From NCBI GenBank assembly GCA_020627655.1, contig JAHDGM010000014.1, positions 1-57,511 of the forward strand: a DNA stretch of 57,511 nt, read 5' to 3'. The position numbers and the translations under genes were made by a program. Below the pieces are notes generated by a model. The model was not told the origin of the DNA. It was given only the letters and a program-made list of their open reading frames with translations, and ran no database searches. This DNA comes from Hellea sp. GTDB taxonomy: Bacteria; Pseudomonadota; Alphaproteobacteria; Caulobacterales; Maricaulaceae. Positions 8,878 to 38,314 of this stretch are shown in pieces. Every line of letters begins with the position of its first letter. Positions within the stretch are counted from its first letter, which is position 1.

Positions 8878-10194
8878 ATGAAAAGTTTTATACGGGGCAA
8901 ATCTATGTCCTTAAAAGCCTGTTTAATTGGAGCAGCATCGGTTTTTATGGTGGCATCACCTGCGATGGCTCAAACCTACACTTTAGAAAAAGATGTGCCG
9001 GTTGTTCTAACCAAGAGCAGTGGCCAAGAAGCATTATATAAATTTTATGCCCCTGCGGGTGCAACAAATTTGGTGATTAAAACCTCCGGTGGAACAGGTG
9101 ATGCTGATCTCTGGGTTAATTTTGGATCTGATCCGACATGGCTGAATTATGATTGCCGCCCCTATCTTCAGGGCAGCGATGAAACATGCCTTTTTGCGGA
9201 GCCGCAAGAGGGGTATTATTACATATCTGTTGATGCCTATACGGCGTTTAGCAATGTAACGCTCTCTGGCACATATAATGATACGCCGCCGCCGCCTTCT
9301 GCTGCGGTTCAAAACATTGCTGCAGCTGGTGACAGCATTACGCGTGCTTTTGCGGCAGATTGTACGGGGAATGTATGGCTTTGGGATCTTGCCTGTTTGC
9401 TGGGTGGTGATCAACCCGAGCATTCCTGGTTTGATGGCTGGTCATCCCATGTACTGAGTGTACATGACAAATATAAGGCGCTCGACGGATCGATCACGGC
9501 AAATAAAGATGCAGCGACAACAGGAGCTGAAATGTTTGGTGCAGGCGATAATGGTCCAGAGCCCAATTTTGCAGAACAAGCCGCAATGATTGTAGCTCAA
9601 TCTCCTGTTCCTGATCATGTTGAAGTGGTTTTGGGTGGTAATGATATTTGTAATCGTAATTGTACCAATCCGAAAAACTGTAGTGACCCATTATACTCTG
9701 ACAGTGAGTGGCGTGGTGCCGTTCGCTCTGGCCTGAACACACTCATGACTGGCTTGCCAGAAGGCGGTACCGTTTATATGGGCAGTGTCGCCAGAGTGCA
9801 AAACTTGCGAGATGCAGGTTTGGCTAAAGAAGCAGGTGATTCTGATATCAACTGTCAGTCTTTATGGTCGACTTATGATGTTTGTCAGATCGTAACAGCT
9901 GGTGGTCGCTATAACGGAGAAGGGTTGCGTAAGCGGCATGCTGCTGTTGCCGAAAGACAACAGCGTTATAATGAAATTTTACGCGAAGAAGCTGAGGCGT
10001 ATAATAACAATTCAAATGGCCAAAATCCCAAAGGTATCGAAGTTGTTGCTGAATATGTTGATGAAAATACATATGGCATGGGAACATTTGACTTTACAGC
10101 TAATGACATTGACGGTGGAGATTGCTTTCATCCAAATGTAGCCGCTCAAAACCTTATTGCAGATTTTATGTGGAACTCGAATCCCGACAAGTAA
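8878..10194 (+). CDS. Secreted SGNH/GDSL esterase with PPC domain
   Basis: An exported hydrolase of 438 residues. The ATG at 8878 follows GGAGGAAAT and opens a signal peptide ending ASPAMAQ. Residues of about 35-130 form a bacterial pre-peptidase C-terminal (PPC) beta-sandwich (LYKFYAPAGATNLVIKTSG, GDADLWVNF, GYYYISVDAY), unusually at the N-terminus. After a short Pro linker comes an SGNH hydrolase: block I AAGDSITRAF with the nucleophile Ser, block III GGNDICN with the oxyanion Asn, and block V DCFHPN with the catalytic Asp and His. Several Cys pairs suggest disulphides. The substrate is unknown; lipid or choline esters are possible. An upstream in-frame ATG (8803) lies before the operator and is unlikely. 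A strong terminator follows. Confidence 0.88.
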   Translation: MKSFIRGKSMSLKACLIGAASVFMVASPAMAQTYTLEKDVPVVLTKSSGQEALYKFYAPAGATNLVIKTSGGTGDADLWVNFGSDPTWLNYDCRPYLQGSDETCLFAEPQEGYYYISVDAYTAFSNVTLSGTYNDTPPPPSAAVQNIAAAGDSITRAFAADCTGNVWLWDLACLLGGDQPEHSWFDGWSSHVLSVHDKYKALDGSITANKDAATTGAEMFGAGDNGPEPNFAEQAAMIVAQSPVPDHVEVVLGGNDICNRNCTNPKNCSDPLYSDSEWRGAVRSGLNTLMTGLPEGGTVYMGSVARVQNLRDAGLAKEAGDSDINCQSLWSTYDVCQIVTAGGRYNGEGLRKRHAAVAERQQRYNEILREEAEAYNNNSNGQNPKGIEVVAEYVDENTYGMGTFDFTANDIDGGDCFHPNVAAQNLIADFMWNSNPDK

Positions 10195-10218: not shown

Positions 10219-10248
10219 AAAGCGGCCCTTGTGGCCGCTTTGTTTTTT
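10219..10248 (+). terminator. Intrinsic terminator after the esterase gene
   Basis: A 9-bp perfect stem (AAAGCGGCC and GGCCGCTTT) with loop CTTGT is followed by GTTTTTT. It separates the esterase from the next gene, whose start is only 17 bp further on. Confidence 0.85.
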
Positions 10249-10264
10249 AATTTACGAGAATTTC

Positions 10265-11779
10265 ATGACTAAATTTTGGAGCTATTTGCTAATTGCTGGA
10301 TTGCTGTGCGCATGTCAGCCGCAAACCAACGAAGATAGATCAATTGATGTCAAAACAAAGCAGGCGCAATCTACTGAAACTCAGTCGGAGCATGTGGCCA
10401 GGATCAATGGTCAGGATATTAGCCTCTCTGAGCTCGACAAACCTCTACGTCTTGCTCTGTTTGATCTGGAGTGGCAAAAGTATAAACTTCGAAAAGCGCG
10501 GCTGAACCAACTCGTTGAAACGGCATCAGACAGTCATGATGGTGCAAAACCTTTTAACGCCGAACTTCTTCTGGAACCGCCGTTTCCGCCAAGGCTTGTA
10601 TTGCCGATTGATAATAGACCTATTCGGGGAAATCCAAAATCCCCTATACGCTTAAGTGTTTTTTGTAGCTATCAATCCAGCCATTGTGCGCGGTTGCAAC
10701 CCGTTCTGGAGCAAATAGAGGTTCAATATGGGTCTATGGTCAGTTTCGCATATTATGATTTCCCGCAAGGATATCACCGATATGCCATGGATGCAGCCAA
10801 TGCGGTTCGCTGTGCAGCGGCTCAGCAAGATTCAAGAGATTTTCAAAGTTCAATTTACGGCGCGTTTGATGATTTAAATCAAGAGCGCTTCGAATTGATT
10901 GGCCGTCAATTAAGATTAGATGAGGCAACATTTGAAACATGTCTGAACAGGAAAACATATTCCGAAGCTATCAAAAAGGATGTTGCACTTAGTCAATCTT
11001 TGGGTTTTGGCAGCGTCCCTATCGTGCTTGTGAATGGTTTATATATTAAGGGCCCGCAAACATTGGAAGCGTATCAATATTATATAGATCATGAATTGGC
11101 CCGATTGGGTGAGAAAATTACAGGGCCGATAAAACGCAAGAAATCAAAACTGCCTTTGCAATTACAAGGAACATTTATTGGTGATAGTTCTGAAAAATCT
11201 CGCGCTATAATTAAACTTGTCAAGACCGGGCAGGTACAAACCTTCTTTGAAGGACAGATCGTAACAGACGGTGTTGAATTGACGGATATACAAAAAGATC
11301 GAGTTGTAATCGATAATCAGGGGCAGGCTGAATATATCCTGATACAAGCAAGCTTTGGTCAGGCCGGCAAAGAATTTGAAGCGATAGATGGTGAAAAAAT
11401 AGACGCGGACAATATACTTCCGGACCGGGTGCGCGACTCAGCGGCAAATGGAACTTTTCGTGATAAAAGCAAAATCATCCTGGATCGCAATTGGGTGATG
11501 GATCATTTAACTCAACAAGACGTGCTGGCGGGGCATTTTAAGCCGGCTGAACATAAGGCCAGCGGATTTAATCTTATGCGTCTTGAAGATGTTGAGGGGA
11601 ATGATTTTTATGAGACATTAGGGCTTCGTCCGGGGGATGTTATTATGCAAGTAAATGACGATTGGCTGCATTCAGGGCAAAATCCATTATGGGATTCTTT
11701 AAGGCTGAATAACGAAGTTGGTGTTACTATAATGCGCCGTGGACGGCCGGTACGTTATTACTATCAAATTAAAAATTAA
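10265..11779 (+). CDS. Lipoprotein fusing SurA-like, DsbA-like and GspC (HR plus PDZ) domains
   Basis: A 504-residue envelope protein with an unusual architecture. The start ATG at 10265 gives a lipoprotein signal (LLCAC, Cys17). Residues of about 45-85 (VARINGQDISLSELDKPLRLALFD) resemble the N-terminal helices of SurA/PpiC-type proteins. Residues of about 118-282 form a DsbA-like thioredoxin fold, with the cis-Pro loop GSVP (Pro252), but the active site reads S-S-H-C (138-141): the first Cys of CXXC is Ser, while Cys134 lies just upstream. Residues 296-362 (LPLQLQGTFIGDSSEKSRAI onward, FFEGQIVTDGVELTDIQKDR) match the homology region of GspC, the inner-membrane link of type II secretion, and residues of about 430-504 match its PDZ domain (LGLRPGDVIMQVND). 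No other secretion gene is in the window. Confidence 0.8.
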   Translation: MTKFWSYLLIAGLLCACQPQTNEDRSIDVKTKQAQSTETQSEHVARINGQDISLSELDKPLRLALFDLEWQKYKLRKARLNQLVETASDSHDGAKPFNAELLLEPPFPPRLVLPIDNRPIRGNPKSPIRLSVFCSYQSSHCARLQPVLEQIEVQYGSMVSFAYYDFPQGYHRYAMDAANAVRCAAAQQDSRDFQSSIYGAFDDLNQERFELIGRQLRLDEATFETCLNRKTYSEAIKKDVALSQSLGFGSVPIVLVNGLYIKGPQTLEAYQYYIDHELARLGEKITGPIKRKKSKLPLQLQGTFIGDSSEKSRAIIKLVKTGQVQTFFEGQIVTDGVELTDIQKDRVVIDNQGQAEYILIQASFGQAGKEFEAIDGEKIDADNILPDRVRDSAANGTFRDKSKIILDRNWVMDHLTQQDVLAGHFKPAEHKASGFNLMRLEDVEGNDFYETLGLRPGDVIMQVNDDWLHSGQNPLWDSLRLNNEVGVTIMRRGRPVRYYYQIKN

Positions 11780-37624: not shown

Positions 37625-38314
37625 ATGAGCATGGCCAAAAATGTATTACTTTTAAAAGCATCCAAAGATGTATGCGGCAGTGAAACCAATTTGATTAAAA
37701 ATCACTGCGAACTCTTAGGAATGAAAGTTTATGAAAGTAGCATTGGGTCATATGCCGAGCTGCAAAATTCATTTGAAGACTACCATAAAAAGAACCTAAA
37801 TTTCGATTACATATACCTATGCACTCATGGAAACACGGAGTGTTTCCTCGCAGATATGTCAGGGACAAAAGAATATATAAAATGGGCAGATTTCTCTTCT
37901 GAACTATGCGTTCATGGTTTGCTCTCAAATTCAGGAATCGTACTCTTAGCATGTTGCAAAGGGGGATTTTCAAAAGTTGCATATGACATCTTCGCATGCT
38001 GCAATACCGTGAATTATATATGCGGGATAAAATGGTCCATAGCGCCATGGGACATTACCACGGGATTTGTGGTCTTCATTCACAACATGGAGACCAAACG
38101 AGCCGAGCCTAGATATGCGGCGTTAAAAGCCTCTCAAGCCACGGATTATACCTTTCACTGTTATGACCGCGATGAGATTGAAACTAACCCGGCTTATTAT
38201 CAAAGAGCAGCTCAATTGTTTTCTGATCTAGGATGGATTGATGACAGTGGAGAATGGGTTGAGACTGATCCCAATGTCAACAAGTTTGCAGACAAAGAAG
38301 TACTGGGGTTGTAG
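37625..38314 (+). CDS. Stand-alone caspase/CHAT-like protein
   Basis: A 229-residue protein that I read as a CHAT/caspase-fold cysteine peptidase. A Rossmann-like start (KNVLLLKAS) is followed by strand DYIYLCTHGN with the catalytic-type His68-Gly69, then SNSGIVLLACCKGG, which matches the L-x-A-C strand of CHAT proteins with Cys110 (Cys111 adjacent). The rest (YICGIKWSIAPWDITTGFVVFIHNME) fits the strand and helix after the Cys. No signal or other domain is present. Start 37625 or 37631. Codon use is more AT-rich than the neighbours (many AAA, TTT, ATA), hinting at transfer. No partner gene adjoins; globin lies before, IalB after on the other strand. Confidence 0.6.
   Translation: MSMAKNVLLLKASKDVCGSETNLIKNHCELLGMKVYESSIGSYAELQNSFEDYHKKNLNFDYIYLCTHGNTECFLADMSGTKEYIKWADFSSELCVHGLLSNSGIVLLACCKGGFSKVAYDIFACCNTVNYICGIKWSIAPWDITTGFVVFIHNMETKRAEPRYAALKASQATDYTFHCYDRDEIETNPAYYQRAAQLFSDLGWIDDSGEWVETDPNVNKFADKEVLGL

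Follow-up and report, generated by a model that had tools for sequence, protein, structure and literature searches.

In type II secretion, the homology region (HR) of GspC binds the secretin GspD, pairing strands with its N0 domain; alterations where the two meet abolish secretion (PMC3169554). In Vibrio cholerae, VesB alone among the known clients fully relies on the PDZ domain of EpsC (PMC12369372). In addition, LipB and CpaB are described as client-dedicated chaperones of the type II secretion system (T2SS) that are encoded beside their clients (PMC4713064). The choice of clients by the T2SS is still called poorly understood (PMC12369372, PMC7949064). The gene described here joins a GspC-type HR and PDZ region to a DsbA-like thioredoxin domain in one frame and lies next to the gene of an SGNH/GDSL esterase.

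This gene was found in the window, by which we mean the whole stretch of 57,511 nucleotides that was analysed (contig JAHDGM010000014.1 of Hellea sp.); its product is called the adaptor below, after the role that we propose for it. The preliminary description of the window had read the frame at 10265-11779 as a DsbA-like domain followed by the HR and PDZ domain of GspC. The coordinates were right, and Pfam, NCBIfam and Foldseek agreed with the reading (Table 1). A TTG at 10229, 5' of the ATG, would give a longer open frame. Both halves were recovered in profile searches, as that description had expected. In Pfam, Thioredoxin_4 (residues 118-275, E 3.3e-18), DSBA (residues 130-274, E 3.9e-7) and T2SSC (residues 293-358, E 3.5e-10) all scored over their cut-offs, and the thioredoxin half matched DsbA-like structures by sequence. 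The NCBIfam model GspC_delta (E 1.4e-19) aligned its positions 94-311, out of 311, with residues 289-503, and TIGR01713 matched residues 291-499 (E 5.5e-12), though both remained below their curated cut-offs, with GspC equivalog scores of 71 bits (cut-off 150) and 45.8 bits (cut-off 101.6). For the GspC module, profile matches in the PDB included LspC and OutC. PDZ_6 matched weakly (E 0.057), and the Pfam PDZ models were in general weak and below cut-off. The N-terminal helices had been called SurA-like. An N-terminal domain does exist, but the SurA label is weak: the domain had no Pfam match in the window protein, SurA_N included, and the best match of SurA_N_3 (E 0.064, below cut-off) was seen in one of the six adaptors given to Pfam, with DUF7158 (E 0.0033, below cut-off) in another of the six.

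Table 1 Features of the esterase-adaptor locus in positions of the window
Feature	Coordinates	Strand	Description
SGNH/GDSL esterase, partner gene	8878..10194	+	signal peptide by eye; one PPC domain; start at 8878 assumed, frame open from 8803
Terminator-like hairpin between esterase and adaptor	10219..10241	+	9-bp perfect stem and T run; 0/500 base shuffles
DsbA-GspC adaptor gene	10265..11779	+	504 aa; ATG at 10265, stop ends at 11779
Lipoprotein-type signal	10265..10315	+	ends in lipobox LCAC, predicted modified Cys C17 (sequence)
N-terminal domain, residues 42-115	10388..10609	+	SurA_N-like by eye; also in some DsbA-only relatives
DsbA-like thioredoxin domain, residues 112-283	10598..11113	+	Pfam, sequence and fold matches
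Altered active site C134-S-Y-Q-S-S-H-C141	10664..10687	+	CX6C instead of CXXC
GspC homology region (HR) domain, residues 293-358	11141..11338	+	T2SSC; Foldseek to 3oss_C
GspC-type PDZ region, residues 398-504	11456..11776	+	NCBIfam GspC_delta; Foldseek to EpsC PDZ 2i4s

Structure prediction gave a weak model of the full-length adaptor (pLDDT 62.3, pTM 0.40), in which the N-terminal domain, at low confidence, consists of short strands and one helix. The GspC half was modelled with a mean pLDDT of 74.6. Its top match in Foldseek, and the sole one under E 0.001, was the EpsC PDZ domain (2i4s, E 3.2e-4). Lower in rank were LspC (7oio, E 2.3e-3) and the HR of GspC from the GspC-GspD complex (3oss_C), the latter at E 5.7e-3 with a TM-score of 0.87 by target length and an rmsd of 1.7, and the PDZ proteases DegQ and HtrA2 were also among the PDZ matches. 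By these models, the C-terminal half of the adaptor carries GspC-type HR and PDZ folds. For the thioredoxin half, a low-confidence part of the full-length model, DsbA/ScsC-type structures came out on top with low TM-scores (best 0.38 by target length).

The whole architecture is common to 11 proteins, the window's included, and for this reason chance is excluded as its origin. A scan of the contig collection yielded five loci, from two Hellea metagenome-assembled genomes (MAGs), an Oleiphilus MAG, Shewanella hanedai JCM 20706 (L051, genome G154) and an Exilibacterium MAG. Hellea is placed in the Alphaproteobacteria; the adaptor records labelled Oleiphilus, Shewanella and Exilibacterium we take to be gammaproteobacterial. 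With a profile of the three Hellea proteins, matches were obtained in 3/137 genomes of the window's family, all in its genus: the window's genome (G000) and its congeners G001 and G003. A six-adaptor profile gave full-length matches in two of the 369 genomes from the class of G154 (G154 itself and G239) and in four of the 146 from its family (G154, G599, G617 and G639); a ten-adaptor profile gave them in G000 and G787 among 398 genomes of the phylum (2/398). Cut-offs were E 1e-20 for the window's family and E 1e-12 for the class and family of G154, a match was counted only if it ran through both halves, and scoring in the searches of the class and the phylum was confined to the top 3-6 first-look candidates of each genome. 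Discovery was by the full-length profile for G239, G599, G617, G639 and G787, and by the T2SSC family for G001 and G003.

Thioredoxin_4 was over cut-off in each of the 11 adaptors, and GspC_delta matched them all (E 9.2e-8 to 2.2e-21), in every case below its curated cut-off. T2SSC exceeded its cut-off in seven, fell below it in two (G239, G599) and had no match at E 0.01 in two more (G617, G639). In a midpoint-rooted tree, the GspC modules of the 11 adaptors made up one side of a branch with support 100/99, against 33 ordinary gspC sequences; these came from 34 loci, L015 having been dropped (E 2.6). The G239 protein, whose start codon is provisional, was aligned from a cut point before its hydrophobic stretch. 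Misassembly or a chimera, which the preliminary description had named among the grounds for refuting its reading, was rejected: the 11 fusions form one clade, two of them lie on contigs of 5.9 Mb (G639) and 5.2 Mb (G599), and the architecture is spread over Hellea and the three other genus labels named above. As to spread by plasmids, searching the plasmid collection with P0001 at E 1e-20 gave nothing.

A GDSL-family esterase gene adjoins the adaptor gene in all 11 loci, with Pfam Lipase_GDSL over cut-off each time. It lies upstream and co-directional in eight (gaps of 55 to 396 bases); in the other three, Exilibacterium (L052), G239 (L100) and G787 (L120), the two genes are convergent and therefore not one operon. 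A profile of the esterase catalytic domain recovered the same genomes as the adaptor, with the two genes adjacent, in 3/137, 4/146 and 2/369 genomes. Since G154 lies in two of these sets (146 and 369), 651 distinct genomes were covered; 8 have both genes, 643 have neither and, at the cut-offs applied, no genome has just one of them. For the esterase the threshold was E 1e-40, which leaves more distant esterases uncounted; the adaptor and esterase searches were taken to cover the same genome sets from their equal numbers and matching genome handles, and in the phylum set (398) the esterase was looked for in the neighbourhood of G787 only. The link to the Cys-rich esterase upstream that had been drawn from the window was thus found to extend to every locus. 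Pairwise distances between adaptors correlated with those between their esterases (r 0.94 over 11 pairs; 0/10000 label permutations reached r), a correlation for which common descent accounts in part or in full and from which coevolution is not separated.

The window esterase has 11 Cys, eight of them in the catalytic domain, which starts at about 9313; each of these eight is invariant in the 11 esterases. PPC domains occur in 8/11, one each in G000, G001, G003 and Oleiphilus and two each in four Shewanellaceae; they are absent from the Exilibacterium and G787 esterases, and the G239 esterase has a Flg_new_2 repeat. The esterase profile A5 had no PDB match at E 0.01. The hairpin between the two genes in the window might hold adaptor levels below those of the client. 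A conserved terminator at this place was rejected, as such a hairpin was found in one of the eight co-directional loci; other hairpins, possible terminators at most, are also visible. In G001 (L037:9697-13563) the pair adjoins two subtilases, each with one PPC and one PKD domain in Pfam, so that several secreted enzymes may be clustered here. Elsewhere in the window, a frame at 37625-38314 with HG and ACC motifs resembles, by eye, a caspase/CHAT-like protease; it had no Pfam match at E 0.01.

We consider it rather probable that the product of the adaptor gene is an export adaptor dedicated to one client, the SGNH esterase encoded next to it, and that it works like the LipB and CpaB chaperones. 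The esterase, a putative T2SS client, would reach the periplasm by Sec, where the N-terminal and thioredoxin-fold half of the adaptor would bind it as a holdase or foldase. The HR of the adaptor would dock on the N0 domain of GspD, as that of GspC does, and the PDZ region together with the client-binding half would pass the esterase, once folded, on to the secretin. The transmembrane helix of GspC would be replaced by a lipid anchor (in G239, by a signal that has no lipobox), and with such an anchor the adaptor need not belong to the inner-membrane platform. By analogy, a client-dedicated adaptor is the simplest way of joining the precedents of HR-N0 docking, the EpsC PDZ domain and LipB/CpaB. 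Against this reading stand the GspC scores below the curated cut-offs, the single Foldseek match under E 0.001, the low-confidence model of the thioredoxin half, the convergent genes of three loci and the hairpin between the two genes of the window.

The proposed holdase or foldase activity, rather than that of an ordinary oxidase, is suggested because the nucleophile of the CXXC motif is gone. The preliminary description had noted a CXXC altered to S-S-H-C with an extra Cys seven residues before, and C134 and S138-S139-H140-C141 are indeed present. None of the 11 adaptors has a CXXC; S-x-H-C stands in its place within a common C-x-x-Q-S-x-H-C, in which C134 and C141 are invariant. The three loci L050-L052 (Oleiphilus, Shewanella hanedai and Exilibacterium) were found by patterns including FCSYQSSH, so that the motif may be selected for in these three. 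Two more Cys, C183 and C226, are also found in all 11, and V251-P252, a candidate for the cis-proline loop, is invariant in the 10 proteins aligned. In contrast, C-x-x-C is kept in all 40 DsbA-only relatives read (18 from the class, 16 from the family and 6 from the phylum search, out of 107 listed in these searches as 37, 26 and 44), and none of the 40 has a Cys at the position of C134. The N-terminal domain of the adaptor was recognized in four of the six phylum-search relatives (iE 8.6e-9 to 2.9e-4 in a small database; 0.11 and 1.1 in the other two). From these sequences, the adaptor looks like an N-terminal-domain plus DsbA protein that has, in whatever order, lost the nucleophilic Cys, gained a Cys seven residues before the remaining one and acquired the periplasmic module of GspC.

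The invariance of C134 and C141, beside a client with eight invariant Cys, would also suit a helper for disulphides only, in which this pair repairs or shuffles the disulphides of the esterase and the GspC module places the protein near the secretin with no loading role. We regard this as unlikely: the nucleophile lost from every adaptor is the one that the 40 DsbA-only relatives read keep, and in the adaptor alignment the PDZ region is no less conserved than the HR. One-to-one pairing with the esterase, as seen in enzyme-inhibitor pairs, could likewise mean that the adaptor is a periplasmic inhibitor or guard, which keeps the esterase inactive until export and so spares the cell's own molecules; this is improbable in our judgement, as it leaves the HR and PDZ module unexplained.

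The lipid anchor of the proposed export adaptor would rest on the lipobox. The lipidated form that had been described is predicted for the window protein by its LCAC lipobox (LAAC in both congeners, by eye), but not as a general rule, for a lipobox is present by eye in 10 of the 11 adaptors and the signal of G239 is without the lipobox Cys. In none of the 10 is the +2 residue after this Cys an Asp. According to the +2 rule known from enterobacteria, a residue other than Asp directs a lipoprotein to the outer membrane, and by this analogy the +2 residues of the 10 adaptors point to the outer membrane. They would also fit a lipoprotein that stays in the outer membrane or on the cell surface and tethers the esterase to the cell. 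Such a surface anchor has little probability in view of G239 and of the HR domain, which is known as a periplasmic docking part (PMC3169554).

In G239 (L100:6741-9525) the adaptor gene adjoins a gspA-like gene and a gspB, the latter with T2SSB over its cut-off, a neighbourhood that ties the adaptor to the T2SS by position, once in 11 loci. Together with weak T2SSB matches (E 0.0073, 0.18 and 0.0013, all below cut-off), it could be taken to mean that the adaptor helps to assemble or scaffold the secretin as a second factor of the GspB kind, and that it travels with the esterase by accident. We give this very little credence, gsp genes being next door in one locus as against the esterase in all 11.

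Finally, the preliminary description had offered the protein as a possible new replacement for GspC, and the genomes were surveyed for an ordinary gspC. The window's genome (2.59 Mb in 89 contigs) has one T2SSC match, the adaptor gene, and four secretin matches. One of these is gspD; after it come gspE and, by eye, gspF to gspN, with TIGR02517 (gspD) and TIGR02533 (gspE) scoring over their cut-offs. Roughly 100 bases separate the start of this gspD from the end of its contig, and they encode a 35-residue peptide whose stop overlaps the gspD start. The peptide is 57-79% identical to the C-termini of ordinary gspC in 8/12 congener loci, from 7/9 genomes; no such match was found among the loci of G003 and G005. 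As it matches gspC C-termini directly before gspD, the peptide indicates an ordinary gspC in G000 that was cut by the assembly. Thus the place before gspD is taken by an ordinary gspC tail, and the adaptor gene lies outside the gsp operon. Each of the ten other genomes (G001, G003, G153-G155, G239, G599, G617, G639 and G787) has a further, separate T2SSC match, distinguished from the fusion by its frame length (217-348 aa). All 11 adaptor genomes therefore hold a separate gspC, that of G000 being represented by its tail only. Replacement of GspC in Hellea, for which the T2SSC search of the assembled G000 would speak, is hardly tenable against this tail and the separate frames of the other ten genomes. 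In G003, two ordinary gspC matches (C10, C102) were seen besides the fusion, which may reflect a second T2SS or contamination. L043 and L044, each the second T2SSC match of its genome (G026, frame of 320 aa; G022, frame of 191 aa), were left out.

More tentatively, and with confidence somewhat short of even, the pair may stand for private loading adaptors of type II secretion: a patchily distributed two-gene cassette of a secreted enzyme and a docking module of GspC type, lipid-anchored and fused to a DsbA-like client binder that lacks the usual active site, by which one substrate would bypass, or compete with, general GspC recognition at the secretin. If true, the type II machine would have a new means of selecting its exports, in which the HR-PDZ module of GspC has left the machine and been fused to a presumed client binder that accompanies a single client. 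Such an arrangement would also provide a one-client system in which recognition, docking on GspD and the role of the PDZ region could be studied separately from the remaining machinery. Judged by title and start of abstract, neither a DsbA-GspC fusion nor an adaptor-esterase pair was found among the literature matches listed. Dedicated T2SS chaperones are already known as a kind; a member with a GspC docking module of its own was not found among these matches.

Compared with described protein families, the adaptor shares parts with several. It has the thioredoxin domain of DsbA oxidoreductases, with Pfam scores over cut-offs, but not their CXXC. Four DsbA-only relatives (L114, L115, L118 and L119) have both its N-terminal and its DsbA-like domain and keep CxxC, and the match to them ends before the GspC module. 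The Rcas_1661 family thioredoxin-like (seleno)lipoprotein model (NF041057) matches the thioredoxin half of all 11 adaptors (E 2.8e-9 to 1.6e-20, below the curated cut-off); it is a named lipoprotein family of 247 positions with no GspC part. The Trx7/PDZ domain-containing (seleno)protein family (NF041199), by its name, combines a thioredoxin fold and a PDZ domain in one chain, and its PDZ part alone matches the three Hellea proteins (E 0.006-0.011, far below cut-off). GspB/OutB, also of the T2SS, has a domain that weakly resembles the HR part, with matches below cut-off, and the T2SSB model is without a DsbA or PDZ part.

GspC itself (EpsC, OutC, LspC) has, like the adaptor, an HR followed by a PDZ domain over its periplasmic part, and the predicted folds match 3oss_C and 2i4s. 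In some GspC proteins the C-terminal region is a coiled coil instead of a PDZ domain. GspC is anchored in the inner membrane by a single N-terminal transmembrane helix, in place of which the adaptor has a lipobox-type signal (by eye in 10/11, the G239 signal being without lipobox). The adaptor further differs from GspC by its position outside the gsp operon, its coexistence with a separate gspC, its DsbA-like half and its own clade, and it falls short of the curated GspC equivalog score in 11/11. LipB/Lif and CpaB have transmembrane anchors, CpaB has an SRPBCC domain, and the accessible part of PMC4713064 describes no GspC docking part for them. Like these chaperones, the adaptor is predicted to be envelope-anchored, given its lipobox in 10/11, and is encoded beside one putatively secreted enzyme: it stands next to the esterase in 11/11 loci and, at the cut-offs used, never occurs without it in 651 genomes.
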